The notes under the pieces were generated by a model. It was not told where the DNA came from and did not search any database. It saw nothing but the letters and a program-made list of their open reading frames with translations. 48,428 bases of DNA from a virus: positions 1 through 48,428 of IMG/VR virus record IMGVR_UViG_3300005533_000227; one strand, 5' to 3'. Below, piece by piece: positions 3,301 to 38,230 of the stretch. The position numbers were made by a program, and so were the translations under genes. Numbering within the stretch: position 1 is the first letter of the stretch; every line of letters begins with the position of its first letter.

Positions 3301-3574
3301 CGTTGCTGTGGGCGGCGGCGGTCGTCCCGAAGGCTCCACGCTGGCAACCCGTGAACGCCGTCCCGCTCTTGCCGGTGTACACGATCAGTTCGTCGTCAAT
3401 CGAGAGGATGCCGTAGCTCGCGGCAAACCCACCGGACGCGGACACCACGTTAATCGTGGAGTCGCCCGCCAGGACGCCGCCCGTGACCGTCGTCTCCAGG
3501 GGCGCGCCGGAAAACGCATCGGCCGGCGTGAACAGGCTGGCCGCGCTGTCGATTGCGCCAGGATAGTTAGCCAT
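377..3574 (-). CDS. Long repetitive tail fibre protein with C-terminal carbohydrate-binding-like domain, 1065 aa
   Basis: Probable receptor-binding side or tip fibre. The ATG at 3574 gives MANYPGAIDS and overlaps the stop of the preceding gene by 8 nt; a longer in-frame reading (to 3892) is out-of-frame sequence of that neighbour. Residues 1-250 look like a fibre attachment region. Residues 255-760 are repeats: a module of about 130 residues starting at V399 recurs at V529 (GTRRGINLIEG, PAWDTLVSGDLP), and a shorter unit (SGTLALARGGAGADLS) occurs near 340, 654 and 704. Residues about 810-960 resemble a jelly-roll CBM (YSEDFSVGTWDKNGG, FYVWMKVASGTMTVSL). The repeats and the C-terminal sugar-binding fold are typical of phage fibres; the receptor is unknown. 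Confidence 0.85.
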   Translation of the reverse strand: MANYPGAIDSAASLFTPADAFSGAPLETTVTGGVLAGDSTINVVSASGGFAASYGILSIDDELIVYTGKSGTAFTGCQRGAFGTTAAAHSNGTAVKANMVAGFITALQSAVLAIENELGTAAARNYVRKDGAVTVTGLKTFQDGAEFGSGTKASTGLVRLPNAGSVKWRKADNSGDLGISLGANNHLAMDAVIDFAAGQTFGAFSYPDATTAAKGIVQIDAVGGLAVAAGVLSIADSPVTPGSYPKVTVDQKGRVTAGTLLLAADLPSHTHTASDITAGSLPFTIQNNGAAVGTRRALNLIQGANIGLTFLDVPASDRVEVTVALASVPAHNHAASDINSGTLALARGGVGASLSGTGPGFLRQTGVGAAVTVATLVSGDLPSHTHEGSDITSAALHTVLKAAASIGTRRGINLIEGGNVTLTVSDDAGNDRVNVTIAAASGAATHNLLSVTHPDTAVASPVLGDLIAANATPAWSRVAGNTTATRKFLRQTGNGSTAALPAWDTLVSGDLPTHTHTGTDVTSAAPINVLKSAAAIGTRRGINLIEGTNVTLTMADDAGNDRVNITIAASAGGGSNHNLLSGTHSDTVAASPVLGDMIAANSTPAWQRVAGNTTATRKFLRQTGTGTVGAIPAWDTLVSGDLPAHNHAASDVNSGTLALARGGAGADLSASGPGFLKQTGVGAVVTVAALAAADIPAHDTSKLTSGTLALARGGAGADLSASGPGFLKQTGVGAAVTVAALASGDLPAHTHTSAQITDATAAATVSTVVLRDGSGGANFAYAAANNLWAYLDSHLQSVESGPYGTVGGPYENMLKYSEDFSVGTWDKNGGTCTVVANSIVAPDGNTTADAVTASGAAGLIRQNIAGLAANGQYTFYVWMKVASGTMTVSLGILDNGWTTWLVGPTAVTLTTSWQRFKVTATMTGGATALWVALGHYTDGWTAGQVFHAWGACLQQGNDPKRGYARTWGYQTAQVLAGVACGPTVVSAVNSTDSPLKVRGPGSNLADHTLLEVTAGGELIIAGGTGNGYRLAELMGATNPNGWSGVLKVKNPAGVTAGYILLYSNP
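1640..2380 (-). repeat. Tandem duplication of a ~390-bp module inside the tail fibre gene
   Basis: Units start at 2380 and 1990 (reading on the minus strand), 390 nt apart. Both encode VLK(A/S)AA(S/A)IGTRRGINLIEG followed by a (V/M)(S/A)DDAGNDRVN(V/I)TIAA stretch and a PAWDTLVSGDLP end. The nucleotide sequences remain clearly similar. A second, shorter duplication of about 150 nt (SGTLALARGGAGADLS) lies at about 1352-1615. Confidence 0.85.
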
Positions 3575-6500
3575 TGAGCTTTCCCTCGTTTCCCTTGAAC
3601 CGATTGAGAGCACCACTGGGCGGCGCGATGACCACGACCGCCGTTGGCAGCTCCGCGGCGCGAGCGTACTTCGGCTTGTGGTACACCGCTGCCGTTCCTT
3701 GCGCCTGCGGGAGGGCCGTGGGCAAGGGCACCGGACGGCTGTTGAGACAGAACTGGTCGAACGCCCACAGCGCCATTGAGTAGACCTTCGACGCGCGGAA
3801 GTTCGAGTACGCCTGCGCGAGCGGAGGGTCCGGAGGACCGTACAGGCCCGCCAGATACATGCACTCCGATGCGGGCCGTCCCAGCGTGGCATTCGCGTAC
3901 GTCAACGTCTGCTTCATCAGCACGGCGTTCTTCTGCCACACGTCGTAATCGAATCCCTCGCATCGGAAGTACTTGAGGCCGAACGACGACGACTTCCACT
4001 GGTCGGGCAGGTTGATGCGCATCAGGAGCGCGCGGTACGCCGGATCGGGCGACGGCTTCCCCTGATTGGCATCGAGCGGCCACAGGCACTCGAAGACGGC
4101 GGTCGGATGATACGCGAGAACGTACGCCATCACCTCCTGGCAATACGACCAGATCCGGTCTCGCAGGAAGTTCGCCGTCTCGTACGGGTGCGCCGGATCG
4201 CCAGCAGGATCATCGGTATTGGCCACGAACGGCCAAATCTGGTGACCTTTCGCCGCCGCGAATGCGTCGATAGTCTCCTGATCATAGAAGCCCATGCCGC
4301 CGTTGGCATCGGTCGCGCGGTTGTCGAAGTACCACCACTGCGTCTCTCCAAACTGGAGCGCGACCGCCAGGCCCGCCGCCGCCACCTCGTCCGCGCACTC
4401 CTTGTACATCTGCTTCAGGTAGTTCCGGACGCGCGTGCCGAAGTGCATCTGGTACGAGGGCGTAGGCAGGAACACGTCGTCGCCCTGCTGCACGACGCCG
4501 CCAGCCTTGCGGAGATACTTCGCGCGCATGCCTGCGGGCGGGTTGTAGCACTCCATCGAGAACGCGAACGACGCCGGGATGCCCGCCGCCGCGAACTGGC
4601 CCGCCAGATCGCGCAGCCACTTCCGCGCGCCCTCCGTCATCACCGGCGACACGGAGTCGAGCAACTCCCAATCGCCCTCCGCGCCCGCCGTGCCGAGGTT
4701 GTTCACGAGCGTGAGCGTCACATTCGCGGAGGATGTGACCGCCACGCCAGTGAACGTCTGGCTGGGCGCCTTGGCCTGAATCCGGAGCGTGGTGCTCGAT
4801 CCGAAGTTGTCGTTGGCCCATGCGCTGGAGAAAATCGCGTTGATGGCCATGCGGAGTTGGGACGCGATGCTCTGGAGAGTCTCGCCGTACCCCATCGCGT
4901 GCGTGATGGTGGTCCCGGCAATCGAGATGGCGACCGTCTCTCCTGGCGTCGGCGTGCCAGTGAACGCGACCGTGGCGTACGGGTAGCTCGCGCCGATCCG
5001 CTGCCGCTTGTTGTTCCAGAAGACGCCCATGTACACGTCGGCGTGGCCCTGGAACCCGAGTTTCTGGAGTTGCCACAGCAGCCAGGCCGGGGGCTTCTTG
5101 TAGCCGTGGTCGGTGTCGAAGTCGATGGCCAGCGACACGTCGCCGTACACCTGCGGCGCGTCAGGAACGTCCTGCGGCTCCAGGGGCCACAGGTAATCGA
5201 AGTAAAAGAACGCGGTCGGCGTCGTGCCCCACGGTTCGATCCTCACCGTGTGACTTCCGGCCGCAACGCCCGTGGCGATCCGGAGGTTCACTGAACGGCC
5301 TCCGTACTCGTTGAGCACTGGATAGACGGCACCAGCGAACGCGCCGTCCACATATACGCTCGCAAATGCGAAATCGCTGCTCGCGAGGTCGAAGGTACCA
5401 AGGTAGAGGTCGTGTTGCTTCGGATACGAGTACGTGATCGACACGTCGCCTATGTCGGCGTGGTCGTTGTTCGGCGCGATCCGGCGCGCGTGGCCACCGC
5501 TCCACCATTGGGAGGGCCACCCCGCGCCATAGGCGTAATCCTGCCATTTCGTGCCCGTGTACTTGCACCGCGCGTCGGAGGACTTGATGCGCGAGCTACC
5601 GCCGCCCACCTTCAGGCTGGCATCGCCGGTCACCGTGATGTTGGAGATGGTCGCGCGCCACTCCACGTCGGACGTGAAGCCGCTATCAGGCGGGAGCTTC
5701 TGGAGGCGCGTGCCGGTGGGCCAGGAGCCTGCCGTCGAGCCTTCATAGCCACGCTGGACGCTGATGCTGGTCGAGCCTCCGGCCACGAGCAGGATGCGCT
5801 CCTTGCTGGTCGGCGTCCCGATGAAGTACCGCCCCCCAGTGAGCTTCGATCCATCGTCCACGCTCCAGGTGGTGTCGCCCGGATTGACCAGAGCGGTCAG
5901 GAAGCACCCGTCCTCCAACTCCTCCTCCGCGCGCTCGAAGCGGGGCGCAAAAACCATGTAGATCTTCCAGCACTTGGTGGCATCGACCGCAGCGCCGTTC
6001 TTGTCCGTGAGGGTGTTGAACGGCAACTCGATGTGGTACCGGATCGTGTTGTCGCCGCCCCCGAAGCGATAACTCGATCCGGAGCCATCGGTCCACTGGA
6101 AGCCCTGCTGCGTGTCGTCCTCCGCGCCGCCGTTCGTGCGCCCGTGCGTCACTACCACGCGATCCAGGTTCCCGAGTTTCCCGTAGATCGTCCCATCAGA
6201 TGCGGCGGGCTGGAACTCGAGGTGTACCGATCCGGACTGGTAAGTGGTGCCGCCGCCCACTTCGGCTTTGATGACGCTCGATTGGTCCGGGCCGAACCTG
6301 CCCGCCACGTCGCCGGCGTTGTGCGTGTTGATGATGTCCGCGAGCTTCTTGGCGAGGTGCCACGCTTCGGTCTGGCGGCTTATGTACGACTTGTCGGCGT
6401 GGGTCTTCGTGAGGTACGCATAGAACTTCCCGAAGACGCCGGAGACGATCTGAACGATGGAGGTCGTCTCGAAGTTTGTCCCGCCGCGCTCGATATCGAT

Positions 6501-7649: not shown

Positions 7650-8204
7650 TTAATCAACTGCCTTGGCCAGATCCAAGGCAATCAAGAATTCAACGGCCTT
7701 TCGGATCTCATCTTCCGTGACGGTCCAACCGAATTTAGTGGCCTGTTTGACGAGTTCGGTATCGCTTGCCCTCGTCGCCTGTTTGAGCAGGAAATATGCT
7801 TTCGCTGCGATGGATAGCTCCATATAATTCAGGTCGCCGGCCTCAGAAAGGCGCTTGACCGCCTTTTCAACCCGTATCCAATCCTCAGGCGACCGGGCCT
7901 TCTTTGCGGCTAGCACAGAGCGCCCATCGGGAGTCAGTTGGAAATCGTGGCGCGCAATCTCGAAGCCTGATGCGTTGTAGCTGCCGGCTGATGCTGTGGA
8001 TTCCGAGAGGTATCCCAAGCTCTTAAGTTCCTGATTTGCCGCGGCCACCGTTGCCGAGTAAGGGCCATAGTAATGAGCACCGTAGCCGAAGTCCTTCCCC
8101 AACATGACCGCCACAAAATACATTTTTTTCTGGAGGTTGGTTTTCCCTTGAATGCTTCCCCCAGCGGCGTCGTAGGTAAACAGGAGGGCGTCATTAATCG
8201 TCAT
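7650..8204 (-). CDS. ywgA-like: YwgA-family protein, partner of the HD phosphohydrolase, 184 aa
   Basis: The N-terminus has the YwgA-family pattern: GKTNLQKKMYFVAVMLG followed by HYYGPYS, a short helical-wedge fold reported next to HD-domain genes in Bacillus and many other bacteria. No enzymatic motif is visible and no biochemical role is established for the family. The ATG at 8204 overlaps the TGA of the HD gene in an ATGA motif and is preceded by GGAAGGAG, so the two proteins are translationally coupled and probably act together, for example with YwgA as a regulator or sensor of the HD enzyme. Codon use and GC differ from the surrounding tail genes, which suggests acquisition as a unit. 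Confidence 0.75.
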   Translation of the reverse strand: MTINDALLFTYDAAGGSIQGKTNLQKKMYFVAVMLGKDFGYGAHYYGPYSATVAAANQELKSLGYLSESTASAGSYNASGFEIARHDFQLTPDGRSVLAAKKARSPEDWIRVEKAVKRLSEAGDLNYMELSIAAKAYFLLKQATRASDTELVKQATKFGWTVTEDEIRKAVEFLIALDLAKAVD

Positions 8205-9760
8205 TGTGATGCTCCTTCCAGAATCGCGGCAATCGGCGCCGAGAGTTTGTTCTTCAGGCTTCTCCGTTCCGCCGGCGTCTGATACTCTACTGGGGCGTAG
8301 ACCTCGACAAAAGTCTCGCTGAGCTTCTCATTTATCGAATTAAACAAAACTGAAGCGCTCTCGAACAGTATGGGGGGCGTTTCGTTAACCAAGATGGACG
8401 CCTCATCGTTCCGCGCCTCCTCCTTAACCGACTTCAATGTATAACCGTGAACAATGACGAAATGCGAAGGGTCTGTTCCGGGTGTAGTTACAACCTTGGC
8501 GTGTTTTTGTATCTCTTCCAATAGCAGCTTTTCGATGTGCCTGCGTTTGTCCGCATTTTTCGGCTTGGAAATAGCGCTCAGTGCTTCCCGCGCGTCCGGA
8601 GAAAACTGAATGACTGGTTTACGGAAAACCAGTTTAAGTAGCCGCCTTCGAAGCAAGCCACTGAACAGAAAGTGGCCGAGTTTGCCCTCGAACTGCTCCG
8701 ACGAAAATGCCTGCAGTAGTCGCGTGTCTCCCCACGCAGCGTACCGTTTGATGAAGTCAAACGACCCATCGAAAGCGTAGAGCGCACGGAGCTCGTCTAT
8801 TTGGTCCTCTTCAACGCCCAGTATGATCGCCCGGATGAGCATCTGATCGGTGATCAGACGGATTCGATGGCGCACCACCTGGGTGGTGATGTAGTACTTC
8901 GCCAGAACGAATTGCTCTAACGTATGGACACCGCCGGGCTCGATCATGAGCGTTCTGTCCCCAGCGGGATCAGCGATGTTACAGAGCACCTCGTGCAACT
9001 GCGGCAGATCGAACATGCCATACTGAACTCCACAATAATAACTGTCCCGCAACAGGTAGTCCTGCTTATCCGCATCAAGCGGCCCCGAAAGCACGTTTTT
9101 CAAAATGGGCTCGCCGTGCCCGGGACCGAGGGCATTCACAATTCTTTCCCTGTCATTCTGTGCAAGCGACCTGGCGATCTGCGGATCCTCTCGAATCAGG
9201 ATCGTGGTAATCAGTTCATGGATCTTATGCGTCTTCGGGGGTAATTTTTCACGATCAGAATACCGCTCAAGGGCTTCCTCAGAGACGTGCGAAAACGGGC
9301 CATGGCCGAGATCATGAAGAAGCGCCGCAAGCCGCACCAGCTTCGTCTGGTCCTCGTCGAATCCGAGCTTCCGGGCAAGCAATCCGGCGACGTGGCAAAC
9401 GCCGAGGCTATGCTCGAAGCGCGTGTGGGTGGCACCAGGATAGACCAGGTAGGCGAACGCGAGTTGCCGCAGATTCCGCAGGCGTTGAAACGCCTCAGAA
9501 TCGATGATTTCGGTCTCCTGTTCGTTCAGTTTGATGAACCGATGGATCGGATCGCGAATTGTTCGGCTCTCTGGCACGGCGATGGTTGCGCGAAAACGTT
9601 CTGACGGAATTCTGTTTTGGACTTCTATTGTACAGGCTGTCACAGCGCGTGCATACCCCAGAATGAACACTTCGCTACGGGAATCGAAGCAAACGTATTT
9701 CCATGACGCGAAATTCCCAGCCGACGCCCATTCTTTGAGCTTGAAACCGATTCTCTTCAT
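8201..9760 (-). CDS. HD-domain phosphohydrolase (SAMHD1/dGTPase-like), 519 aa
   Basis: Predicted metal-dependent phosphohydrolase of the family that includes dGTPases, SAMHD1 and Bacillus YwfO. The fold begins near residue 65 with TIRDPIHRFIKL and AFQRLRNLRQLA. The metal-binding set is HTRFEHSLGVCHVA (His117) and LLHDLGHGPFSH (His149-Asp150), followed by DADKQDYLLRDSYYCG, the conserved third-Asp region of these enzymes. The likely substrates are deoxynucleoside triphosphates or other nucleotides, not shown here. I chose ATG 9760 (MKRIGFKLKEW); the longer reading to 9949 is arginine- and glycine-rich and unlikely to be translated. No Shine-Dalgarno is visible, unlike the phage structural genes. 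The gene sits between tail-tip and tail-fibre genes and is coupled to the YwgA gene. Confidence 0.85.
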   Translation of the reverse strand: MKRIGFKLKEWASAGNFASWKYVCFDSRSEVFILGYARAVTACTIEVQNRIPSERFRATIAVPESRTIRDPIHRFIKLNEQETEIIDSEAFQRLRNLRQLAFAYLVYPGATHTRFEHSLGVCHVAGLLARKLGFDEDQTKLVRLAALLHDLGHGPFSHVSEEALERYSDREKLPPKTHKIHELITTILIREDPQIARSLAQNDRERIVNALGPGHGEPILKNVLSGPLDADKQDYLLRDSYYCGVQYGMFDLPQLHEVLCNIADPAGDRTLMIEPGGVHTLEQFVLAKYYITTQVVRHRIRLITDQMLIRAIILGVEEDQIDELRALYAFDGSFDFIKRYAAWGDTRLLQAFSSEQFEGKLGHFLFSGLLRRRLLKLVFRKPVIQFSPDAREALSAISKPKNADKRRHIEKLLLEEIQKHAKVVTTPGTDPSHFVIVHGYTLKSVKEEARNDEASILVNETPPILFESASVLFNSINEKLSETFVEVYAPVEYQTPAERRSLKNKLSAPIAAILEGASQ

Positions 9761-10055
9761 TGGTCGACTTTCGGGAACTGTCGGGCGGGAATGGCGATTC
9801 CCGCCGAATACCCCGCTACCGGGTTTCACCGTCTTAACGCCAGTTTCGCTGCCTGGACATCGCGCGTACCTGTAAAGCCCCAGTCGCATACTACGGCCGC
9901 ACATCCATCCTACCATGGCGAACAAAAAGCGAAAGTGCCTGTTGCCCACCTTGTCGAGTCTCTACCGTGCGCCGGTGATGGCAAGACGGTCCAGCCCTAC
10001 TGTCGCCAACCCGTGGACATCTCGGGACAACCGACTCGTTGGTCATTAGGCCGAT
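9761..10055. other. Non-coding leader between tail-tip gene and HD gene
   Basis: 295 nt without a gene. It separates the end of the tail-tip gene from the HD/YwgA pair and should hold the promoter of that pair, but I see no convincing -35/-10 set. It contains one strong hairpin, listed separately. The gap is exceptional, since other late genes here overlap or are spaced by under 50 nt. Confidence 0.6.
9784..9805 (-). promoter_or_regulatory. Perfect 9-bp inverted repeat upstream of the HD gene
   Basis: GGCGGGAAT / ATTCCCGCC with a 4-nt loop (ggcg), ending 23 nt before the HD start codon. There is no T-run on either side, so it is not a classical terminator. It may be an operator or a leader hairpin limiting ribosome access to the HD gene. 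Confidence 0.5.
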
Positions 10056-25466: not shown

Positions 25467-27539
25467 CTACGCCGCGGTGTTTTTCTGCAGGCCGCGGAAG
25501 TCGATTGCCGCGGCGGCAAAATCCAGACGGGCCTTGACCTCGACACCGTCCACCTCGAAGCCCTGACGGGTTTCGATGTTCACACCCTGCTGCCCTTCGA
25601 GATAGCAGTACTCGATCGTGTCAATCGAGCTCGGATCGGCCGCCGTGTACCAGTTGGTGTCGCCGACGCTCGCCACTGCATCGAGGCGGGGCTCCACGAT
25701 CGGCACCATGGCTCGCACGAAGGCGGGCACGTCGGCGGAAGATGCGGTGGCGGCCAGGTTGATGGGGTTGGTGAGCTGGACCGCAATTCCCTCGAGTGCC
25801 GCCGGGATAATCAGGAACTTGGGAATCAGGTTCAGGATCGTGCCCTTGGGTGCCGTCTGTTTGCGCATCGCCTTGCGCGCGGCCGTGATATTGGCCACGG
25901 CAGCGAGGGCGTTGGTGGCCGTTAGGTTCTTGTGCGTCGCATGGAACAGAGGCAGGCCGTCGGCCATGTTCGCGTTTGCCGTGATCACGGCCCACACGGT
26001 GTCGCTTTCGAGCGTGGCGGCCGCAATACCCAAACCGGCGGGAATCCGCGTCAACGACTGGAGGTCGTCGTTGAGCACCACCTTTCTGGTGATGGGCACG
26101 ATGCCGCCCCAGGTGCTGAGCGCGTAGGATTCCTTCGAGTCGCTCAGATAGATGCGGACGAACTCCCCGTTCTCGCTCGTCTTCTGCAAGGCGGCGATGT
26201 CGCTCAACTGAACACGGTTCACCGGCTTGAAGTCGGCTGCGGTCACCTGCCGGCAAAACGGCACGAACGTGCGCGGCGCCGCCTCATATGCCTGGCGCAG
26301 AGTCTTGTTGGCGACATTGGCGAGGATGTTCGGAAAGTCGCTGGTGGTCATTGCCCCGGCGAAGTATTCGGCCGCCCCGTTGCGGCCTTGGAGAGCCACG
26401 CGAGCGATCTCGTGCCGCTCCATCCCGCGCGTCTTCACGCCGGCGGCATTCAGGCATTCGCGCGCCATGTCCACCAGCGTGAGCCCGGCGAACTCGCGCC
26501 CCTTTTCGACCATGTCAGCAGACACGCCAGGGTTGCCCCGCAAGAACAATGCGGCCTCCATTCCCTCCCGCCGCTTGTCGACCTCATCTCTGCCTCCGAA
26601 CGTGGCAGGCGGGTTGACTCCATTGGTCGGCGTCCTGCGATACTCGGCCTCGACCTTGTTCATGATGCGTTCGCGAGCGGCGTCGATGGACACACCCTCG
26701 TCAATCAGCGCTGCGAGGAAGCTCTCCTCCACCTGGAAGGGGCCGGTTGCGATCGCGCGAATCTTGCTCGCGCGCAACCGCTCCGCCTTCACCGCCTCGT
26801 CGCGCGCCGCGGCGAGGTCAACTTCGTTCTGACGGGCCTCAACGCCCGGATCCTGCGTGGTCGTTTCCATGTCAGGGTTCTCCTCTGTGTGGGCAGATGC
26901 CCGTTGGGTTTCAACTACACTCGGTGGCGCCGGTGGCGATACCGCCGCCGACATGAAATTGGTGGCCGCGTCGGCGGGCACCGACAAAAGGGAGATCTCA
27001 AACGGCTCCCAATCCGTCGCCGTGAATTCCTTGCGTTCCTGGCCCTTCGGCGTGGTGTCGACCTTCTTGTAGATCCACATGCCAGGGCTGAGGTTCTGAA
27101 TGATGCCGGCCTTTACGTCGTTCCAGATCGGCGTCACCGCGTCGCGCTTGCTGAACTGGAGCGTGGCCATGCCGGTAGATTTCTTGGCCCAGGCCTTGCG
27201 CACTACGCCAAGCTGACTCTCCACCCCGTAGGCGCTGTGCGAGTCCAAAACCGGACCGCCGTTGTTCAGGCGATCCAGACGGCACCCTTTCATGTCGAGG
27301 ATGAGGTCGTATTCCTCGCCGCTGCGCCAGTCGAACCGGGGCACCTTGGCGCCCGTGTACCAGACCGCGTCGATGGTTCGAGAGTCGTCGTTTGCCGACG
27401 GCGGAGCGAAGGTAGCCTCCACCGTGAAACGCTCGACCTGGACCTCCGGGCTTTCCTGCTGAGGCTCGGGCTGCGCGGCCGCCGCGATAACTTCCGCCGG
27501 GGCGGTCTCCGGCGCTGTCCCCGTGACTTCTTCAGGCAT
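25467..27539 (-). CDS. Fused prohead protease and major capsid protein (Mu gpT-like), 690 aa
   Basis: Residues about 35-200 resemble an HK97-type prohead protease: VLDSHSAYG with candidate His101, IIQNLSPGMW with candidate Ser151 and the closing EISLLSVPADAATNF. Residues about 225-365 are charged and helical like a scaffold or delta domain. From about 365 the sequence is a Mu gpT-like major head subunit (TTSDFPNILANVANKTLRQA, LPLFHATHKNLT, QGVNIETRQGFEVDGVEVK). A single polypeptide would thus carry protease, scaffold and shell. An internal start at 26870 could separately supply scaffold-capsid. ATG 27539 lies 31 nt after the portal gene. Confidence 0.88.
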   Translation of the reverse strand: MPEEVTGTAPETAPAEVIAAAAQPEPQQESPEVQVERFTVEATFAPPSANDDSRTIDAVWYTGAKVPRFDWRSGEEYDLILDMKGCRLDRLNNGGPVLDSHSAYGVESQLGVVRKAWAKKSTGMATLQFSKRDAVTPIWNDVKAGIIQNLSPGMWIYKKVDTTPKGQERKEFTATDWEPFEISLLSVPADAATNFMSAAVSPPAPPSVVETQRASAHTEENPDMETTTQDPGVEARQNEVDLAAARDEAVKAERLRASKIRAIATGPFQVEESFLAALIDEGVSIDAARERIMNKVEAEYRRTPTNGVNPPATFGGRDEVDKRREGMEAALFLRGNPGVSADMVEKGREFAGLTLVDMARECLNAAGVKTRGMERHEIARVALQGRNGAAEYFAGAMTTSDFPNILANVANKTLRQAYEAAPRTFVPFCRQVTAADFKPVNRVQLSDIAALQKTSENGEFVRIYLSDSKESYALSTWGGIVPITRKVVLNDDLQSLTRIPAGLGIAAATLESDTVWAVITANANMADGLPLFHATHKNLTATNALAAVANITAARKAMRKQTAPKGTILNLIPKFLIIPAALEGIAVQLTNPINLAATASSADVPAFVRAMVPIVEPRLDAVASVGDTNWYTAADPSSIDTIEYCYLEGQQGVNIETRQGFEVDGVEVKARLDFAAAAIDFRGLQKNTAA
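26868..26886 (-). promoter_or_regulatory. Probable internal translation start within the protease-capsid gene
   Basis: An in-frame ATG at 26870 (residue 224, METTTQDPGVEARQ) is preceded by AGAGGAGAA at 26878-26886, with 9 nt between GGAG and ATG. This is as strong as the ribosome sites of independent genes here. It falls exactly between the protease and scaffold/capsid parts and would yield a 467-aa protein lacking the protease, comparable in logic to the internal start that makes Nu3 from lambda gene C. Confidence 0.65.
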
Positions 27540-29132: not shown

Positions 29133-29345
29133 TTAGTCTCTGCTGTGAGTAGCCAAGCTAAAAGAGGATGGCGTCGAGCCTGAAGCGTTGCTGATTGCGG
29201 TGTCGATGTCGGCGAGCGCTTTCCGCATTTCGTCGATGCTGTTGTACTCAACCGCGCGGTCGGTGAACTGTACACGGCGCGTACCGCTGAAGATGGCGCG
29301 CTGCAGCGTGTCGCGCATGGACTGCAATTCAGACAGTTGAATCAT
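29133..29345 (-). CDS. gpW-like head-tail connector protein, 70 aa
   Basis: Small protein with SELQSMRDTLQRAIFSGTRR, VQFTDRAVEYNSIDEMRKAL, matching the gpW family that joins the portal to the head-completion complex. The ATG at 29345 overlaps the TerL stop in ATGA; a longer reading to 29378 starts inside TerL. Gene order TerL-gpW-portal is that of lambda. Confidence 0.88.
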   Translation of the reverse strand: MIQLSELQSMRDTLQRAIFSGTRRVQFTDRAVEYNSIDEMRKALADIDTAISNASGSTPSSFSLATHSRD

Positions 29346-31276
29346 TTGAACCAGTTCTTGCCGCCGCGTTGTCCCCAAAACTCATCGCGTGCGCCCCAGT
29401 ACCCGTCATTGGGTGGCGCCTTCGCCGTGGTGGTCGGGGTGATTCCTTCGAGCTCCGCCCAATCCTCGTCCGAGAAGCGATCGATTCCACACACAGCCGC
29501 GGCCGCTCGGCAGAGCACCGCGAGGTCGAGCGGTTCGTTCCTGACCGACTTATCCGGTACCCACTCCACCTTGCCGCTGGACCGGATGATCCGCGACTCG
29601 GAGCAGAGCCCGCGATAGAAATCCTGATCCTTGTAGGCGTAGTGTTGGAACCCAGGTGGGTACGTGCCGTCGTCGGGCAGCACGATCCGCAGCCAATCGT
29701 AGAACTCCTGCTTCGCCCAGTGCGTGCCGATGTGCCAGATCCGGACGTTTTGCCGCTTGCGCGAAGCATCGGTGGGCGACACGGAGACGATCAGTTTCAG
29801 AAAATCGGGCTTGCCCTTGGTAGCCACCACGGTGCGCGGCGCAGCGATGACGTCGCCTGCCGGCCCGTGCGCCGGTTGCGGATGGCGCGCAGCAAACTCG
29901 TACACCATCTGCGGACGGAAGCCTGAGTCGATGGTCATCGCCATAATGGGCATCGTGCCGCCAGCCTCTCGCGGCCAGTCCGTCGCCAGCAACGTCTCCA
30001 ACTCCTGCCACACTTCCGGCGAGGACGTTTTGAGCGGTTGCCCCACCTGGTCCGGCACCTGGATCACCCGGTAATCCACCGACCAGGACTCCTTGCCCCG
30101 ACCATACGCCTTGACCTCCACCTCGAGGCGGTCGTCCTGCACGTCGACGCCAGCCACCAGCAGCAATCCCTTCGCCGGCACGATCCCGAGCTCGTAATCC
30201 TCGCGGCGCAGATACACCTTTTCCCAATCCGGCGCGGACCCGCGTTCCGTCCACAGTTCCGCGAGTACGGTGTTCAGGAACGCCTTGAGCGTCTCCGTCG
30301 ACTCCTTGGCGACCAGGAACTCCGCGGCAATCGTTGCCCAGGAGCGCTTCGGAGAGATCAACTGCGACACCCGGAATCCAGGAATCGGCGATCCGGGGTT
30401 TTGCGGACGGTACTCGCCGCGTTCCACCATCGACGATTTCTGGTTGTGCGGGATGAGTTCCCGGCACTTCTCACAGCAGTAGGCGGCCTTCTCCGGCTCG
30501 CCTTCCGGCCACACCAGCCCGCCGTCCGTGCCGTCGCTGAACACCAGAATCTGGAAGTGGTTGCACTTCGGACACGGCACGAAGTATTCCCGCTGGTCGC
30601 TCGTGTTCCACGCCGCCTGAATCCGGCTCTCCCCGTCGACGGTCGGCGTCGAGCACATGATTACCTTCTTGTTGTGCTCAAACTCTCCGGTGCGCTGCAT
30701 CGCCAGCGACACCGGATCTCCCTCCGATCCTGCGCTGGTGGGGTATCGGTCAATCTCGTCCAGCAACAAATACCGGATCGGGCGCATGGCCAGGCCGGAT
30801 GGCGAGATGGCGCCGGTGAAGGTGATGTGCCCGGACCCGTTGGCAAACACCTTGTGCATGGCGGTGTTGTTCGAGTCGCGCGACTTCACTGCCGCGAGCT
30901 TCCCCTTGAGCGCGGGCGAATGCCGGAACAACGGTGCGACGCGATCCTTGGAAAGCGCCTTGGCATCTTCCGATCGCGGCTCCACTGCCAACGTCGGGCC
31001 CGGGTCCACATCCGCGATGTAGCCAAGGAAGTTCACCATGATCGAGGTCTTCAGCATCTGGGCCGCGGACATCAACACCACCTGCTTGCACGGATGGCTA
31101 GGGCTGAGAACGTCCATCGGCTCCCGCTGGTACGGCCGTGTGTGCCACTGGCCGCGCTCCGCCGAACCCGATCCGGTGAGCACCACGTTCTCGTCGGCCC
31201 ACCGCGACACTGAGATATCGCGCGGCGGCAGCAACGCCTCTGCTCCCACCTGGTACATCGAGAATGGTGCTTCCAT
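29342..31276 (-). CDS. Terminase large subunit (GpA family), 644 aa
   Basis: ATPase-nuclease that cuts and pumps phage DNA into the prohead. The Walker A region is the deviant form of the family (SAAQMLKTS, residues 70-78); Walker B is LLLDEID (170-176). Two cysteine pairs (CPKC at 235, CEKC at about 268) form a zinc-finger-like element. The nuclease domain begins with AGVDVQDDRLEVEV near 375 and continues through IDSGFRPQMVYEF. Family and lambda order suggest cos or unit-length packaging. TGATG overlap with queD sets the start at 31276, since the reading from 31303 would begin inside queD. Confidence 0.94.
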   Translation of the reverse strand: MEAPFSMYQVGAEALLPPRDISVSRWADENVVLTGSGSAERGQWHTRPYQREPMDVLSPSHPCKQVVLMSAAQMLKTSIMVNFLGYIADVDPGPTLAVEPRSEDAKALSKDRVAPLFRHSPALKGKLAAVKSRDSNNTAMHKVFANGSGHITFTGAISPSGLAMRPIRYLLLDEIDRYPTSAGSEGDPVSLAMQRTGEFEHNKKVIMCSTPTVDGESRIQAAWNTSDQREYFVPCPKCNHFQILVFSDGTDGGLVWPEGEPEKAAYCCEKCRELIPHNQKSSMVERGEYRPQNPGSPIPGFRVSQLISPKRSWATIAAEFLVAKESTETLKAFLNTVLAELWTERGSAPDWEKVYLRREDYELGIVPAKGLLLVAGVDVQDDRLEVEVKAYGRGKESWSVDYRVIQVPDQVGQPLKTSSPEVWQELETLLATDWPREAGGTMPIMAMTIDSGFRPQMVYEFAARHPQPAHGPAGDVIAAPRTVVATKGKPDFLKLIVSVSPTDASRKRQNVRIWHIGTHWAKQEFYDWLRIVLPDDGTYPPGFQHYAYKDQDFYRGLCSESRIIRSSGKVEWVPDKSVRNEPLDLAVLCRAAAAVCGIDRFSDEDWAELEGITPTTTAKAPPNDGYWGARDEFWGQRGGKNWFK

Positions 31277-31638
31277 CAATCGCCATCCCGCTGATACAAA
31301 CAACCGGTCGTCGCGCTCTCCGCAACTTCGATCCGGAACAACTCCGGCAGGTCCACCCTGATCTGCTCAAACAACCAGGGAGCCAGGATCTCGGTGGTCG
31401 GATTGCCCAGGCCGGGGATCTCATTCAAGACGCGGTGGTCGATCTGGTCAATCACTGCGCCGACCTTCTCTGCGATCACGGCGTAGTCGACGATCATGCC
31501 CCGGTCATCGATCGCACCCCGGCACCACACGCGCACGCGATAGGTGTGGCCATGCATCCTGCCGCACTTGTGCCCCTCCGGGACGTGCGGCAGCCAGTGC
31601 GCCGCATCGAAGTGGAAGTCCTTCCAGATGCTGGTCAG
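31276..31638 (-). CDS. queD: QueD, 6-carboxytetrahydropterin synthase, 120 aa
   Basis: Converts dihydroneopterin triphosphate to 6-carboxytetrahydropterin in the preQ0/7-deazaguanine pathway. Zinc ligands His14 (FDAAH), His29 and His31 (HGHTY), catalytic Cys25 (HKCGR), the Asp67-His68 pair (QIDHRVLNE) and Glu107 (AESATTGC) are all present, and the length is standard. No ATG, GTG or TTG fits: the best start is CTG 31638, overlapping the stop of the upstream gene as CTGA with AGAGGAG 8 nt before it. Later pathway steps (QueE, QueC) are not in the window, so the host would have to provide them. Coupled to the DpdA-like gene and TerL. Confidence 0.9.
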   Translation of the reverse strand: MTSIWKDFHFDAAHWLPHVPEGHKCGRMHGHTYRVRVWCRGAIDDRGMIVDYAVIAEKVGAVIDQIDHRVLNEIPGLGNPTTEILAPWLFEQIRVDLPELFRIEVAESATTGCLYQRDGD

Positions 31639-32360
31639 ACGAACAACTCCTCTTGCTGTGGAATGCCCGCCCACACGGCCGCGCTCTGGGTCGTCTCGTA
31701 GTACTCGACCAGCACATGTGCGCGCGATTCCCGCGAAGCGGCTTTGTAGCAGCCGCCCCAATTCGCCAGCCCGACCTTCCTGCTCACATACGCCGAATCT
31801 GCCGATGCGAGCGGCACGTGTTCGACGATGTGCGGGCTCAGCATCCGCAAGCCGTGGATCTTCACGACTGGCTTTCCGTCCCGGCAGATCGAATCCATTA
31901 CCTGCTGCATCCGGCCCCACCAGGACGCCGTTCCCGGCGTCTTGAATTGCCCGGACGAACCCAACGCTACGCGCGGCCACTCGCCGGCTAAACGTGCCAG
32001 CCGCTCAAGCGACTCGTGGAGGTGCCACACCGGGACGCCCGCGTTTCTGCCGAACGGCCAGTCCTCCATGAGACGGTCGTTCGCCGCCTCGTCCCCGTCG
32101 ATCACGTCTGGGATAACGGCCCAGTCGAAACCGGGATGCCGCCACCACTGCTCGACCCACGCGTAGTACGAAATCCAGTTGACCTCGATACCCTGCTTCC
32201 AGACCGAAAACGCGCCGTTGTCGAGCGCGAAGGACTGCGCCACCTCCGCGGCAATTACGATCTGCTGCGAATCAGCGAAGGAGACCAGCGCGTGTCGGCG
32301 CTTCCAGATTTCGACGGCTACCTGCCAGGTCGAGTGCCGGCCGCCATGGTAATGGATCAT
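31635..32360 (-). CDS. DpdA-like tRNA-guanine-transglycosylase-related protein (DNA 7-deazaguanine insertion), 241 aa
   Basis: Probable TIM-barrel base-exchange enzyme placing a 7-deazaguanine into phage DNA. TGT-like landmarks occur in order: ALDNGAF (45-51), AVIPDVIDGDEAAND (81-95), VPVWHLHE (109-116), RVALGSSG (130-137), KIHGLRM (167-173) and ASADSAYVSR (185-194), whose Asp188 could be the nucleophile. The zinc site of tRNA-acting TGTs is absent, as in phage DpdA proteins. I know similar proteins from other phages, usually unannotated. The queD neighbour strongly supports the assignment; the exact modified base cannot be deduced. TGATG overlap with TerS fixes the start; the reading to 32522 lies over TerS. 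Confidence 0.75.
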   Translation of the reverse strand: MIHYHGGRHSTWQVAVEIWKRRHALVSFADSQQIVIAAEVAQSFALDNGAFSVWKQGIEVNWISYYAWVEQWWRHPGFDWAVIPDVIDGDEAANDRLMEDWPFGRNAGVPVWHLHESLERLARLAGEWPRVALGSSGQFKTPGTASWWGRMQQVMDSICRDGKPVVKIHGLRMLSPHIVEHVPLASADSAYVSRKVGLANWGGCYKAASRESRAHVLVEYYETTQSAAVWAGIPQQEELFV

Positions 32361-32914
32361 CAGTAACCAGCGTCCGAGATCGCTTTCGCCATCTTGCGGC
32401 GCAGAGCGTTCGTTTCTCCCACGAGGATCCGGTGGATCTCCGCTTCTGTCTTCGCGGCAGCTACCAGCGGCGCCACGCGATCCGGGTACGCTGACAACGC
32501 ATCCCCAACGATCGCGGACCAATGCGCCGCATATTCGCCGGCCTTGGTCGCCTGGATTAGTTTCCCGGCGCGTTCCTCATACTCCAGTTGCGCCGTCTTC
32601 GCCTTGAAGGTCTCGCTCACAGCGCGGGCCCGGAGATAGGCGGCAACCGGATCGCTCGATACGTCGGGCTGAACCGGCATTGCTGAACTGCCACGCGGCT
32701 GGGGAGGTGCATTGAGCGGCACTGCCTGCGATTTGGTCGCCTGATGCAGGGTCTTGCCGGCGAATGTGTTCCTCTCCCATTCCTGGTTCGCCCGCTCCGG
32801 ATCGATGCTCCCGTCCGGATTCGGTGTGATCCGCTTGGTGGCGATGGCCTTCTGCACGGCGCTGAGCGCAACACCGCGCAACCGTGCGTACGCCCGCTGA
32901 GAAACGCCAGTCAT
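32360..32914 (-). CDS. Terminase small subunit (Nu1-like), 184 aa
   Basis: Recognises packaging sites in phage DNA. The N-terminus contains a helix-turn-helix, SQRAYARLRGVALSAVQKAI followed by KRITPNPDGSIDPERANQEW, as in Nu1/gp1-type small terminases. The rest is helical: YLRARAVSETFKAKTAQLEYEERAG is the typical oligomerisation segment, and HRILVGETNALRRKMAKAIS forms the tail. It is the first gene of the packaging block and is divergently arranged from the plus-strand cassette, with about 100 nt between them. Confidence 0.85.
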   Translation of the reverse strand: MTGVSQRAYARLRGVALSAVQKAIATKRITPNPDGSIDPERANQEWERNTFAGKTLHQATKSQAVPLNAPPQPRGSSAMPVQPDVSSDPVAAYLRARAVSETFKAKTAQLEYEERAGKLIQATKAGEYAAHWSAIVGDALSAYPDRVAPLVAAAKTEAEIHRILVGETNALRRKMAKAISDAGY

Positions 32915-33016: not shown

Positions 33017-33271
33017 ATGTGTTCGATGCCACGCACCGCCAAGACCACCAAGCAAACCGCCGCCGCCTGCTACGCGGAGCGCCACGCCGAGTGCCAGGAC
33101 CTGCTGAAGCGCATCGCCAGCCGCCTTGAGCATCACCAGAAGGACCAGGCGCGGGAACCCGCCAACTGGGGGTATGCCGGCGACCTGGGTCGCGTCACCG
33201 AGGAACTTGCCTACGTCCTCGCCAGCCTCGGCGACCGCAGCGCGGTGGACCAGAAAGGACTGGAGTACTGA
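33017..33271 (+). CDS. Small hypothetical protein, 84 aa (plus-strand cassette gene 1)
   Basis: First gene of the only plus-strand group in the window. It is a charged helical protein (YAERHAECQDLLKRIASRLE, DLGRVTEELAYVLASLGD) with no known motif. The start could be ATG 33017 or 33026 (MPRTAKTTKQ); neither has a strong ribosome site. It precedes the 77-aa gene by 2 nt, so the three plus-strand genes are probably co-transcribed. The roughly 100-nt divergent region 32915-33016 should hold its promoter, but no clear consensus is seen. Confidence 0.65.
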   Translation: MCSMPRTAKTTKQTAAACYAERHAECQDLLKRIASRLEHHQKDQAREPANWGYAGDLGRVTEELAYVLASLGDRSAVDQKGLEY

Positions 33272-33273
33272 GC

Positions 33274-33507
33274 ATGCAGAAGCACAACATCCAGGTCGGA
33301 TCGACCTACATCGTCAAGGTTAGCGGCACGCTGGCCAAAGTCTGCCTCACCCGCGAATCCCCGCGCGGCGGGTGGTACGGCACCAACCTGGCCACCGGAC
33401 GCGAGATCCGCATCCGGACGGCGGCCCGCCTCCGCTCGGAGGTGCCTACGGCGCGGGAAATCAGCCCCGACGAGGCGCGCCAGATCGTCGACGAGATCGA
33501 GTTTTGA
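33274..33507 (+). CDS. Small hypothetical protein, 77 aa (plus-strand cassette gene 2)
   Basis: Beta-rich N-terminal part with basic residues (IQVGSTYIVKVSGTLAKVCL, GWYGTNLATGREIRIRTAAR) and a short acidic C-terminal helix (SPDEARQIVDEIEF). Proteins of this layout often accompany DUF3489 genes. GGAG lies about 12 nt before the ATG. Function unknown. Confidence 0.7.
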   Translation: MQKHNIQVGSTYIVKVSGTLAKVCLTRESPRGGWYGTNLATGREIRIRTAARLRSEVPTAREISPDEARQIVDEIEF

Positions 33508-33522
33508 AACAAGGAGAAAGCC

Positions 33523-34077
33523 ATGACCACGTTCGCAATCGCCACCGACAACAACATCACTGCCTTCACCGCCGCCGAGCAGGTTCCCGAAGGCCAAGAC
33601 CGTTTCGCCACCGAGAAGGAGTTCGCCAAGCTCTCCGCCGACTGGCCCCTCAACCGCTTCCCCGAGGTCTGGAACGCCTTCGCCGGAGTGGTACCCTTCG
33701 ACGGACTCAAACCCGTCAAGAAGTTCACAGACCGCAAGACGGCGGTCTGCCGGATCTGGAAGGCCATCCAAGCCCTGACGCCTGCGCCCGCGCCCCAGGC
33801 GGGCCCCGTCGCGCCAAAGAAGGCCAAGGCGACCAAGGGCGCCAGAAGCAAGGACGAGGTGCCCACGGCGCGCGACGGCAGCAAGAAGGCCGTCGTACTC
33901 GACATGCTGCGGCGCGCAGACGGCGCCACACTCGCCGACATCATGGGCGCGACCGACTGGCAGGCCCACAGCGTCCGCGGCTTCATCTCGGGCAGCCTAG
34001 GCAAGAAGATGGGCCTCACCGTCGAGTCCTTCAAACGTCCCGATGGCATCCGGGCCTACCGCATAGCAGCCAAGTAG
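33523..34077 (+). CDS. DUF3489-domain protein, 184 aa (plus-strand cassette gene 3)
   Basis: The C-terminal third is a DUF3489 domain: SKKAVVLDMLRRADGATLAD, IMGATDWQAHSVRGFISGSL and ESFKRPDGIRAYRI, a winged-helix-like fold thought to bind DNA. The N-terminal half (EKEFAKLSADWPLNRFPEVW, VKKFTDRKTAVCRIWKAIQA) is separated by a proline/alanine/lysine-rich linker. A strong AAGGAG lies 7 nt before the ATG. The domain suggests a regulator, but no target is known. The gene ends at a hairpin terminator. Confidence 0.82.
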   Translation: MTTFAIATDNNITAFTAAEQVPEGQDRFATEKEFAKLSADWPLNRFPEVWNAFAGVVPFDGLKPVKKFTDRKTAVCRIWKAIQALTPAPAPQAGPVAPKKAKATKGARSKDEVPTARDGSKKAVVLDMLRRADGATLADIMGATDWQAHSVRGFISGSLGKKMGLTVESFKRPDGIRAYRIAAK

Positions 34078-34493: not shown

Positions 34494-35750
34494 TCACGCG
34501 GCCACGTTCGACCGCTCCGCAGCCAGTTCATGGAACGGACGTCCGTCCCCATCCAGCGTGGCTTCTTTCCCGCTGAACTCCTGATAGCGGCGAATGATCA
34601 CATCGCAGTACTTCGCATCCAACTCAATCACGCGCGCCTGGCGCCCGGCCTTCTCGCAAGCGATCAAGGTCGTGCCGGACCCGCCGAACGGGTCGAACAC
34701 CGTGTCGCGGCCCTTGCTGCTGTTCCGGATCGCGCGTTCCACCAACTCGACGGGCTTCATTGTCGGGTGCAGATCGTTGAGGTGCGGCTTCTTGATGAAC
34801 CAGACATCGCCCTGGTCCCGGGCGCCGCACCAGAAGTGATCCGTCCCTTCCTTCCATCCATAAAGAATCGGCTCGTACTGACGCTGGTAGTCCGACCTCC
34901 CCATCGTGAACGTGTTCTTCGCCCAGATGACGAACGTGGACCAGTGCCCACCCGCCTCGCGGAACGCCTTCTCCAGCGTGTGCAGCTCCGACGAAGACAT
35001 GCAGATGTAGACCGCGCCCTTGGTCACCGCAAGGATGTTCACGCAGGCATCCCGCAGGAACTGTTCGAAGTCCTGGCCCAAGTCGTCGTTGGCGATCTTC
35101 CGCTTGTTGCCGCGGAGTTTGTCCTTCATCGTTGCGCCGTAATTCACGTTGTACGGCGGATCGCAAAAGACCATGTCGGCCAGGCCGCCGGCGAGGACCT
35201 TCTCCACGTCAGCCATCTGCGTGGCATCACCGCACAGCAACCGGTGCTCCCCGAGGATCCAGACGTCGCCGGGAACCGTGACCGCGGTCTCCGGAGTCTC
35301 CGGCACCGCATCATCGTCCGTGTTGCCGGCGTTTACTTCCTCGGGCTCCCGAAGCAGATTTTCGATCTCGTCATCAGTGAAGCCGACCAGCTCGAGATTG
35401 AATCCATCCTCATCGAGCGCGGCCATCTCCACGCGGAGCATCTCCTCATCCCATCCGGCGTTGAGCGCCAACCGGTTGTCGGCCAGCACCAGCGCGCGAC
35501 GTTGGGATTCGGTCAGATGATCGAGGACGATGACCGGGATTTCGGTCATGCCCAATTTACGAGCAGCCAGCAGGCGCGCGTGACCGGCGATCACGATTCC
35601 ATCGGCGCCGGCCAGAATCGGATTCGTCCACCCAAACTCGGCGATCGACGCCGCAACTTGGGCGACCTGTTCCGCACTATGCGTGCGCGCATTTCGGGCG
35701 TATGGAATCAGCTTCTCGATCGGCCACGTCACTACCTGCAGATTCGTCAT
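34494..35750 (-). CDS. ParB-like domain / beta-class adenine- or cytosine-N4 DNA methyltransferase, 418 aa
   Basis: Residues about 5-120 form a ParB/Srx-like nuclease-fold domain (PYARNARTHSAEQVAQVAAS, IAGHARLLAARKLG). The methyltransferase part has motif IV DPPY at 197-200 and motif I DPFGGSGTT at 353-361. That order marks the beta class, and DPPY favours N6-adenine. No restriction partner is nearby, so it is probably an orphan phage methyltransferase protecting its DNA or regulating it. ATG 35750 overlaps the preceding stop as ATGA; the 34 residues of the longer reading are out-of-frame neighbour sequence. Confidence 0.9.
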   Translation of the reverse strand: MTNLQVVTWPIEKLIPYARNARTHSAEQVAQVAASIAEFGWTNPILAGADGIVIAGHARLLAARKLGMTEIPVIVLDHLTESQRRALVLADNRLALNAGWDEEMLRVEMAALDEDGFNLELVGFTDDEIENLLREPEEVNAGNTDDDAVPETPETAVTVPGDVWILGEHRLLCGDATQMADVEKVLAGGLADMVFCDPPYNVNYGATMKDKLRGNKRKIANDDLGQDFEQFLRDACVNILAVTKGAVYICMSSSELHTLEKAFREAGGHWSTFVIWAKNTFTMGRSDYQRQYEPILYGWKEGTDHFWCGARDQGDVWFIKKPHLNDLHPTMKPVELVERAIRNSSKGRDTVFDPFGGSGTTLIACEKAGRQARVIELDAKYCDVIIRRYQEFSGKEATLDGDGRPFHELAAERSNVAA

Positions 35751-36022
35751 GCGGCTTTGGGTTGAGCGGGTTTTTGGAACAGGCCCAGCGCGTTGTGCAA
35801 GTCGACGATCCTGGCGATCATCGGCACAACCACCGCGACGAGCTTGTCCCAACTGAATTCCTTCGTCAGGTCCGCGCTCCCGTCATAAGCGGACTTGAGC
35901 ACGTCGAGCACGAGTTCCAACTTCTTGTTCCCCTGGCCGGGCAGCGGGATCGCTTGCTCGACGGCCTGAACCGCTGAAAGCACCAGGGGGAAGATCTTCA
36001 GGATAATCAGCAGAGTATTCAT
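35747..36022 (-). CDS. Small protein with hydrophobic N-terminus, possible holin-like, 91 aa
   Basis: Starts MNTLLIILKIFPLVLSAVQA, a membrane-prone helix. A PLPGQGNKK turn, a helix, and a second moderately hydrophobic stretch WDKLVAVVVPMIARIVDL near residues 58-75 follow. The size and two hydrophobic segments are compatible with a holin, and the neighbouring 86-aa gene also has a membrane helix, but the cell-wall hydrolase lies 21 kb away. Assignment by sequence alone is not possible. Confidence 0.6.
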   Translation of the reverse strand: MNTLLIILKIFPLVLSAVQAVEQAIPLPGQGNKKLELVLDVLKSAYDGSADLTKEFSWDKLVAVVVPMIARIVDLHNALGLFQKPAQPKAA

Positions 36023-36694: not shown

Positions 36695-38230
36695 TTAGGA
36701 AGCCTGGCGGCTCCCATAGAAGGGCGCTGGACCGTGATGCTGAATCCGGCGTGAATCACGAAGCCGCGGATTGTCGACTTGCTCCTGCGGCACGCCGCGC
36801 GCGGCAGCGACCTCTGAAATGGACTGGCCGGTTTCCACGAGTACGGCCCCCTCGCCGGCTAGGTTCGCCATGCGTCGCAGGATCACATCGCAATAGGCTG
36901 GGGAGATCTCGCATCCGTAGCCTGTCCGTCCCAGGACGTGGGCCGCGGCCATCGTGGTTCCTGAGCCCATGAACGGATCGAAGACCACGTCGCCGGCGTC
37001 CGTGAACGCTTTCACGAAGAACTCCACCAGGGCGCGCGGGAATGGAGCGGAGTGCGATCCCTGGCTGCTCTCCGACTTGACCTCGATTACGTTGCTCGGG
37101 CGCGCCACGCCGGTGTGCCGGCCATCCGAATCGTCCGCACCCGGCTGGGCGGCAGCACTTCCCCGTGCCCCGGTGCCGAGTAGCCCGCTCCCCGAGGTCG
37201 ACTTCGGATTGTTCGGGGAATAGTCAAAGCAGTCGTCGGACTCGTGCCCGACCGCTTGCGGACGGAACTTGATCTGCTGCTGCCTACAGAAGTGGTAAAT
37301 CGGTTCGAACGCGTTCTTGAACCTGTTCCCCCAGCCGCCCGGCACGCCGTTGTCGGTCTTGCGCCAACAGAACTCATCCACGAACCGCCAGCCCCACTGG
37401 CGCCGGTGAGCCAGGACCAGGTCCATCACGTACAGATTCCGCTCGCCCTCGTCGGCGTGGGCCTTGATGTTCAGGAAGTAGGATCCGTCGGGCGCCAGCA
37501 CGGACTCGACGCCGGCGGCCACCGCGCGAAACCATTCGACGTACTCCTCAGGCGGCACCGGCTTGAACCCGCTCGATGGATCGTACTCACGCTGCGTGGC
37601 GTAGGGCGGCGATGTGATCGCCACGTTCGCACGGGCGCCCGCCATCAGATTCTCAACGATCGCAGTGTCCCGGCAGTCGCCACAGGCCAGGCGGTGCGGC
37701 CCGATCAACCACACATCCCCGGGCACCGTGACCGGTTGCGCGGGAGGTTCGGGAACCGGTTCCTCCTCGACGTCGGTGGCAGCTTCCGGTTCGGCACTGG
37801 TAAGCAGCACGACGAGTTCCTCGTCGGAGAACCCCACCAGGGACAGGTTGAACCCATCCGCGCTGAGCGACTCCAACGCGCCCCGCAGCAGTTCATCATT
37901 CCACCCGGCGTTGAGCGCAAGCTGGTTATCCGCGATGACGTACGCCCGCCGTTGAATCTCACTGAGGTGGCCCAGCACCACCACCGGAACCTCCGCAAGG
38001 CCCAACTTCCGGGCGGCCAGGAGACGACCGTGGCCGGCAATGATCCCGCCCGTGGAATCGACGAGGATCGGATTCACAAAACCAAACTCCACGATGGACG
38101 CCGCGATCTGCGCCACCTGCTCCGGCGAGTGTGTGCGCGCGTTCTTGTCGTAAGGGACCAAGCGGCCGATGGGCCAGATTTCGATGCGATGCGCCATCGC
38201 CGGCGTCATGGTTGGCGGGAGTGTTGCCAT
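36695..38230 (-). CDS. ParB-like domain / beta-class DNA methyltransferase, 511 aa
   Basis: Paralogue of the methyltransferase at 34494. The N-terminal ParB/Srx-like domain has YDKNARTHSPEQVAQIAASI and IAGHGRLLAARKLG (64-77). Motif IV is TSPPY at 206-210 and motif I DPFMGSGTT at 418-426 with GYGCEISPAYCDVI after it. The TSPPY form occurs in both N4-cytosine and N6-adenine enzymes, so the target base is open. An insertion rich in Gly, Ser and Asp (about 340-380) lies before motif I. The start may be ATG 38230, or internal Met8 or Met12. No restriction gene accompanies it. Confidence 0.9.
   Translation of the reverse strand: MATLPPTMTPAMAHRIEIWPIGRLVPYDKNARTHSPEQVAQIAASIVEFGFVNPILVDSTGGIIAGHGRLLAARKLGLAEVPVVVLGHLSEIQRRAYVIADNQLALNAGWNDELLRGALESLSADGFNLSLVGFSDEELVVLLTSAEPEAATDVEEEPVPEPPAQPVTVPGDVWLIGPHRLACGDCRDTAIVENLMAGARANVAITSPPYATQREYDPSSGFKPVPPEEYVEWFRAVAAGVESVLAPDGSYFLNIKAHADEGERNLYVMDLVLAHRRQWGWRFVDEFCWRKTDNGVPGGWGNRFKNAFEPIYHFCRQQQIKFRPQAVGHESDDCFDYSPNNPKSTSGSGLLGTGARGSAAAQPGADDSDGRHTGVARPSNVIEVKSESSQGSHSAPFPRALVEFFVKAFTDAGDVVFDPFMGSGTTMAAAHVLGRTGYGCEISPAYCDVILRRMANLAGEGAVLVETGQSISEVAAARGVPQEQVDNPRLRDSRRIQHHGPAPFYGSRQAS

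Follow-up and report, generated by a model that had tools for sequence, protein, structure and literature searches.

Why does a soil phage carry a dpdA-like gene and queD between the genes for its two terminase subunits? The phage is represented by the 48,428-base virus record IMGVR_UViG_3300005533_000227, which was analysed in its entirety and is referred to as the window in the following. On the minus strand, terS (32360..32914; small subunit of 184 aa, phrog_57 with E 1.2e-19) is followed by the dpdA-like gene (31635..32360; 241 aa from an ATG start), queD (31276..31638; 6-carboxytetrahydropterin synthase of 120 aa, PF01242 with E 2.3e-31) and terL (29342..31276; lambda gpA-type large subunit of 644 aa from an ATG start, PF05876 and PF20454). 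A previous sequence-only reading had described these genes as serially linked by TGATG, CTGA and TGATG overlaps, and the junctions indeed read ..TTACTGATGATCC.. between terS and dpdA, ..AAGAGGAGTTGTTCGTCTGACC.. between dpdA and queD, where the CTG start of queD overlaps the dpdA stop codon, and ..GATTGATGGAAGC.. between queD and terL, where terL starts in the TGATG of the queD stop. The CTG start appears credible, because a ribosome-binding-like AAGAGGAG (31639..31654, minus strand) lies 8 nt upstream and because the identical position is occupied by ATG or TTG in relatives; the GAGTTGTTC of this element is also kept in relatives. Given the overlapping layout, the pair is likely to be cotranscribed with the terminase genes. 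Scans for RNA families and tRNAs across the window gave no matches. With a probability of roughly three in four, we read the two genes as a minimal 7-deazaguanine DNA-modification cassette, in which a DpdA and the branch-point enzyme QueD rely on preQ0 from the host, serve the evasion of nucleases and are exchanged by recombination.

The first part of this reading concerns the 241-aa protein, whose proposed DpdA/TGT-like identity has been borne out by several lines of evidence. It belongs to the phage family phrog_887, annotated as ‘queuine tRNA-ribosyltransferase’ (E 3.2e-68), and in hhalign, its family matches the group of 9g-type DpdAs with a probability of 98.1% (E 7.8e-14, 145 columns). 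In an alignment of 23 sequences, including four 9g-type DpdAs, the residues Asp47, Gly49, Ala50, Phe51, Pro110, His113, Gly134, His169, Pro183, Asp188 and Ser189 are invariant. Asp47, His169 and Asp188, which are thus found in 9g DpdA as well, are candidate catalytic residues by analogy with TGT, and His169, which sits in a KxHG motif, is probably the conserved DpdA histidine named at position 196 in the literature (PMC6884629). Structure prediction, suggested earlier as a check for a TGT-like TIM barrel, yielded a barrel of alternating strands and helices (AlphaFold2; pLDDT 92.3, pTM 0.90). The best named matches to this model in a viral model library are Queuine tRNA-ribosyltransferases from several phages (TM to 0.68), and the best 50 matches in the PDB are generic TIM barrels only, with TrpA-type barrels first; the kinship with TGT therefore rests on the profile, the motifs and the viral models.

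No Pfam model matches the 241-aa protein, and likewise none matches the characterised 9g DpdA above the cut-off; searches of PDB sequences with the protein and with a 40-row profile returned nothing. The protein thus has no match to the Pfam TGT model, its sequence lacks the C-terminal zinc-binding Cys motif, and the CxCxxC Cys-rich C-terminal region of the host TGTs has no counterpart in the alignment. The hhalign comparison between its family and the host TGTs was not significant either, but since the verified 9g DpdA group fails likewise, this comparison does not discriminate. For the DpdA of Pantoea phage vB_PagS_MED16 (MED16), a homologue at 37.5% identity over 80%, an HHpred match to T. 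maritima TGT has been reported (99.18%; PMC8306585). On our reading, the 241-aa protein is a DpdA-type guanine transglycosylase, which probably exchanges guanine for a modified base in DNA. Some of the guanines would be replaced by preQ0 from the host, with dADG as a possible subsequent form.

The second protein, QueD, matches E. coli QueD (4ntm) with E 2e-36 and 47% identity. Its active site had been described as intact, and His13, Cys24, His28, His30, Asp66-His67 and Glu106 (the start codon is not counted) are all present and aligned with the residues of E. coli QueD and relatives. We take them to represent the zinc-binding His triad, the catalytic Cys, the Asp-His pair and the Glu of this enzyme. 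Two relatives have substituted zinc ligands, H13Y in L003 (2573-2911) and H30D in L106 (2235-2588), which suggests that QueD can decay while dpdA stays. We rejected a host origin of queD, as the host QueDs are of another type (29-36% identity, vs 47% to E. coli QueD), and also a foreign composition (GC 0.631 vs 0.636 in the flanks). QueD catalyses the first dedicated step of the preQ0 branch (PMC13329287); the phage enzyme would pull the FolE product, which is shared with folate synthesis, into this branch and thereby raise the supply of the precursor.

What such a cassette might produce is indicated by MED16 and Salmonella phage 7-11, whose DpdAs (40.8% identity over 71% in the case of 7-11) are the nearest relatives of the 241-aa protein with mass-spectrometry data. 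Their DNA contains dADG, at ~0.13% of G in MED16 and ~0.02% in 7-11 (PMC8306585, PMC6884629), far below the level in CAjan, where the full pathway is present and about 30-32% of G is modified. Mycobacteriophage Orion, which has a lone DpdA, shows no 7-deazaguanine, and its host lacks preQ0. In the phage described here, the product would most likely be substoichiometric dPreQ0 or dADG in the phage DNA, and its presence may help the phage to evade host nucleases. In MED16, dADG seemed to affect the assayed restriction enzymes only minimally (PMC8306585), which makes protection at such low levels doubtful.

The remaining enzymes for preQ0, FolE, QueE and QueC, had been noted as missing and were expected from the host. 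We found no convincing matches to them in the window, a possibly incomplete contig, with 9g protein queries or when comparing the main ORFs with Pfam; the window thus lacks the complete phage preQ0 pathway of Hutinet groups 1 and 2. A TerL profile scan of a genome collection yielded 13 loci, all of which are found in Acidobacteriota assemblies (Acidobacteriia/Terriglobia, with one Candidatus Sulfopaludibacter). One of them lies on a 101-kb contig together with bacterial genes, for instance for NADH dehydrogenase and type VI secretion, which would fit a prophage, although assembly and binning call for the usual caution. FolE, a QueD-type PTPS, adjacent QueE-QueC and a full-length TGT are encoded in 7/7 tested genomes carrying the phage lineage, and phrog_887-type DpdA is rare in the host class (3/299 genomes). 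These genomic data support the view that the phage infects Acidobacteriota and that its host could supply preQ0, FolE, QueE and QueC being contributed by the latter. A QueD is encoded in the host genomes as well, so that the requirement for a second one from the phage is our assumption.

The same pair also occurs in a second genomic setting. In L003, L007, L008 and L028, dpdA and queD (DpdA 72-83% identical) lie among other genes, and in the first three of these contigs, they adjoin genes for ParB-type N6/N4 DNA methyltransferases; the terminase, where visible (L003 and L007), is only ~44% identical to that of the window. L009 and L010 carry dpdA without queD, which was not found across their whole records, and in Pseudomonas phage Epa33, the homologue is followed by a C-5 cytosine methylase. 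Given these methyltransferase neighbours, the second home of dpdA-queD is a DNA-modification setting. Outside the window's clade, QueD, QueE, QueC-QueE or a YhhQ-type transporter are encoded near 12 of 75 DpdA loci, as opposed to none of 54 control loci that lack DpdA and add up to a similar length; the 12 are partly non-independent (L038, L040, L041 and L043 look alike). L030, for example, features a dpdA-queC-queE cluster (1691-3602), another partial preQ0 set with the same DpdA family, and examples from isolated phages are Pam5 (dpdA and a VUT transporter) and Caulobacter phage DMCA (queD-dpdA). The DpdA family has thus been linked independently to different preQ0 genes.

The linkage to QueD and YhhQ would equally suit an activity on tRNA, as the annotation of phrog_887 implies: the transglycosylase and QueD might boost queuosine-type modification of host tRNA and thus late translation. 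We consider this unlikely, as a full-length TGT is already present in all seven host genomes, while the 241-aa protein has no equivalent of the Cys-rich zinc region at the C terminus of TGT and matches 9g-type DpdA in its profile. Moreover, the dpdA gene of 9g failed to bring back queuosine in E. coli (PMC6884629), and in relatives, it is the DNA that contains dADG. Alternatively, the 241-aa protein could be a decayed or repurposed moron that does not exchange bases and offers another benefit, such as superinfection exclusion; its family is indeed often found as a single-gene moron in temperate phages, for instance in BTP1 beside ea22/eaA. Yet Asp47, His169 and Asp188 have been retained from the window phage to 9g DpdA, and the family is tied independently to different preQ0 genes, so that we regard this possibility as highly improbable.

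If dpdA and queD form a DNA-modification cassette, how did it come to lie between terS and terL? Among the 60 viral loci retrieved via TerL and the loci from bacterial genomes, the junction is empty in about 35 relatives, 29 of them viral contigs (TerL 76-97% identical) and 6 from Acidobacteriota genomes. In these, terS runs directly into terL, nearly always via a single TGATG and at the same site where the cassette is found. Empty alleles read TTACTGATG(GAA..) in L116, L118, L119, L173 and others, and the empty site GGACGCTGGTTACTGATGGAAACACC of L118 compares with GGACGCTGGTTACTGATG-[cassette]-GATTGATGGAAGCACC in the window. By this comparison, the inserted cassette extends from the terS stop to the terL start (31276..32360, minus strand), with TGATG at both edges, and coincides exactly with the span that the sequence-only reading had delimited. 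The conservation of the gene order in relatives, which it had proposed to examine, holds in part: terS-dpdA-queD-terL is complete in five independent contigs (the window, L002, L005/L117, L106/L130 and L180) and consistent in three that are cut by the contig start (L105, L177 and L178), whereas the relatives with empty junctions lack it. In L006, dpdA-queD-terL is present, but a terS could not be recognised upstream. The join between terS and dpdA is damaged in L004 (3907-4542), with the terS start in frame with dpdA from residue 42 and most of terS lost, which could reflect either a genuine deletion or an artefact of the assembly, joined at a short motif that is shared; this contig also has a portal in reverse orientation.

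In the phylogeny of TerL, filled forms intermingle with empty ones: 7 changes are required, well supported branches enforce at least 5 of these, and a common clade of all filled forms is rejected (p-AU 1.5e-10). The TerLs of filled and empty forms show a fixed difference at only one of ~640 positions. Likewise, the copies from terS-terL junctions do not group together in the DpdA tree, where the methyltransferase-side L003, L008 and L028 are found beside the window's branch and apart from L005, L006, L106 and L177. Both trees indicate that the pair was moved or exchanged repeatedly. On the basis of these comparisons, the pair is most plausibly understood as an optional cassette with a history of repeated exchange, which is absent from most close relatives. 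It would have been inserted at the overlapping terS stop and terL start and spread by recombination via the conserved flanking genes, for which homologous recombination between copies of terS and terL would be enough. We rejected the idea of a general cargo hotspot at this junction, as no other cargo is found there in ~45 contigs.

The position of the pair had previously been taken as a sign of a link to packaging, either because the guanines are modified in DNA that is soon to be packaged or because the terminase prefers modified sites. This would agree with the translational overlap with both terS and terL and with the recurrence of the same order in five complete and three partial contigs, but it is difficult to reconcile with the many close relatives that lack the pair, with filled TerLs that neither form a clade nor differ consistently at more than one position, and with the copies away from the terminase in L003, L007, L008 and L028. 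We therefore consider it very unlikely. In particular, nearly the same terminase is found where the pair is lacking, with no change that is consistent between the two, which renders the recognition of modified sites by this terminase unlikely; late modification is possible. A combination of both ideas, in which two exchangeable genes suffice and terminase-coupled translation in this phage leads to modification of the DNA as it is packaged, also appears decidedly unlikely.

The exchangeable dpdA-queD cassette can be compared with several known systems. Published phages fall into groups with the complete pathway and DpdA, with DpdA alone, and with the pathway but without DpdA (PMC6884629). MED16, a lone-DpdA phage of group 3, has a DpdA of the same family, no FolE, QueE or QueC of its own and would have to obtain preQ0 from its host, but its dpdA is not accompanied by queD and is surrounded by small genes without known function at a distance from the terminase. 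Phage 7-11 likewise shares the DpdA family and has trace dADG in its DNA, but no preQ0 gene (PMC6884629). Enterobacteria phage 9g and CAjan (Queuovirinae) combine DpdA, with the invariant Asp, His and Asp, and QueD, but they encode the entire preQ0 set in a cluster of DNA-metabolism genes, and their DpdAs are only ~24% identical. Closest in gene content is the isolate DMCA (PQ480021), in which queD and dpdA are adjacent and the 18.6 kb analysed contain no further gene for preQ0; here, the gene order is reversed, QueD is shorter, DpdA is 34% identical and the pair lies outside the packaging operon. Pseudanabaena phage Pam5, finally, combines the same DpdA family with one precursor-supply gene, which encodes a VUT transporter rather than a biosynthetic enzyme. 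In the literature consulted, we found no description of a set of DpdA and QueD only, nor of Acidobacteriota phages with it, and regard it as a variant of the known systems; the DMCA deposit suggests that it exists in isolates, too.

For published lone-DpdA phages, the source of preQ0 and the DNA modification itself have been left open. That the same DpdA family is repeatedly found with one supply function, be it QueD, QueE, QueC-QueE or a YhhQ transporter, predicts that the flux of the precursor limits modification. Furthermore, phages that are nearly identical apart from a filled or an empty allele offer a natural matched comparison of what the modification is worth to the phage.

Other regions of the window are noteworthy in their own right. 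Two genes on the minus strand (34494-35852 and 36695-38230) encode fusions of a ParB domain with an N6/N4 DNA methyltransferase, which are found near terS in relatives, too, and constitute a second DNA-modification layer of this phage. Between the methyltransferase genes and terS, an island of three genes on the opposite strand (33017-34077, plus) encodes proteins of 84, 77 and 184 aa, the last with a DUF3489 domain, and is conserved across relatives. A 690-aa protein (25467-27539, minus) has a major capsid domain in its C-terminal half only and is possibly a protease-capsid fusion. Lastly, a 582-aa HD-domain protein (8201-9949, minus) is encoded inside the tail gene region.
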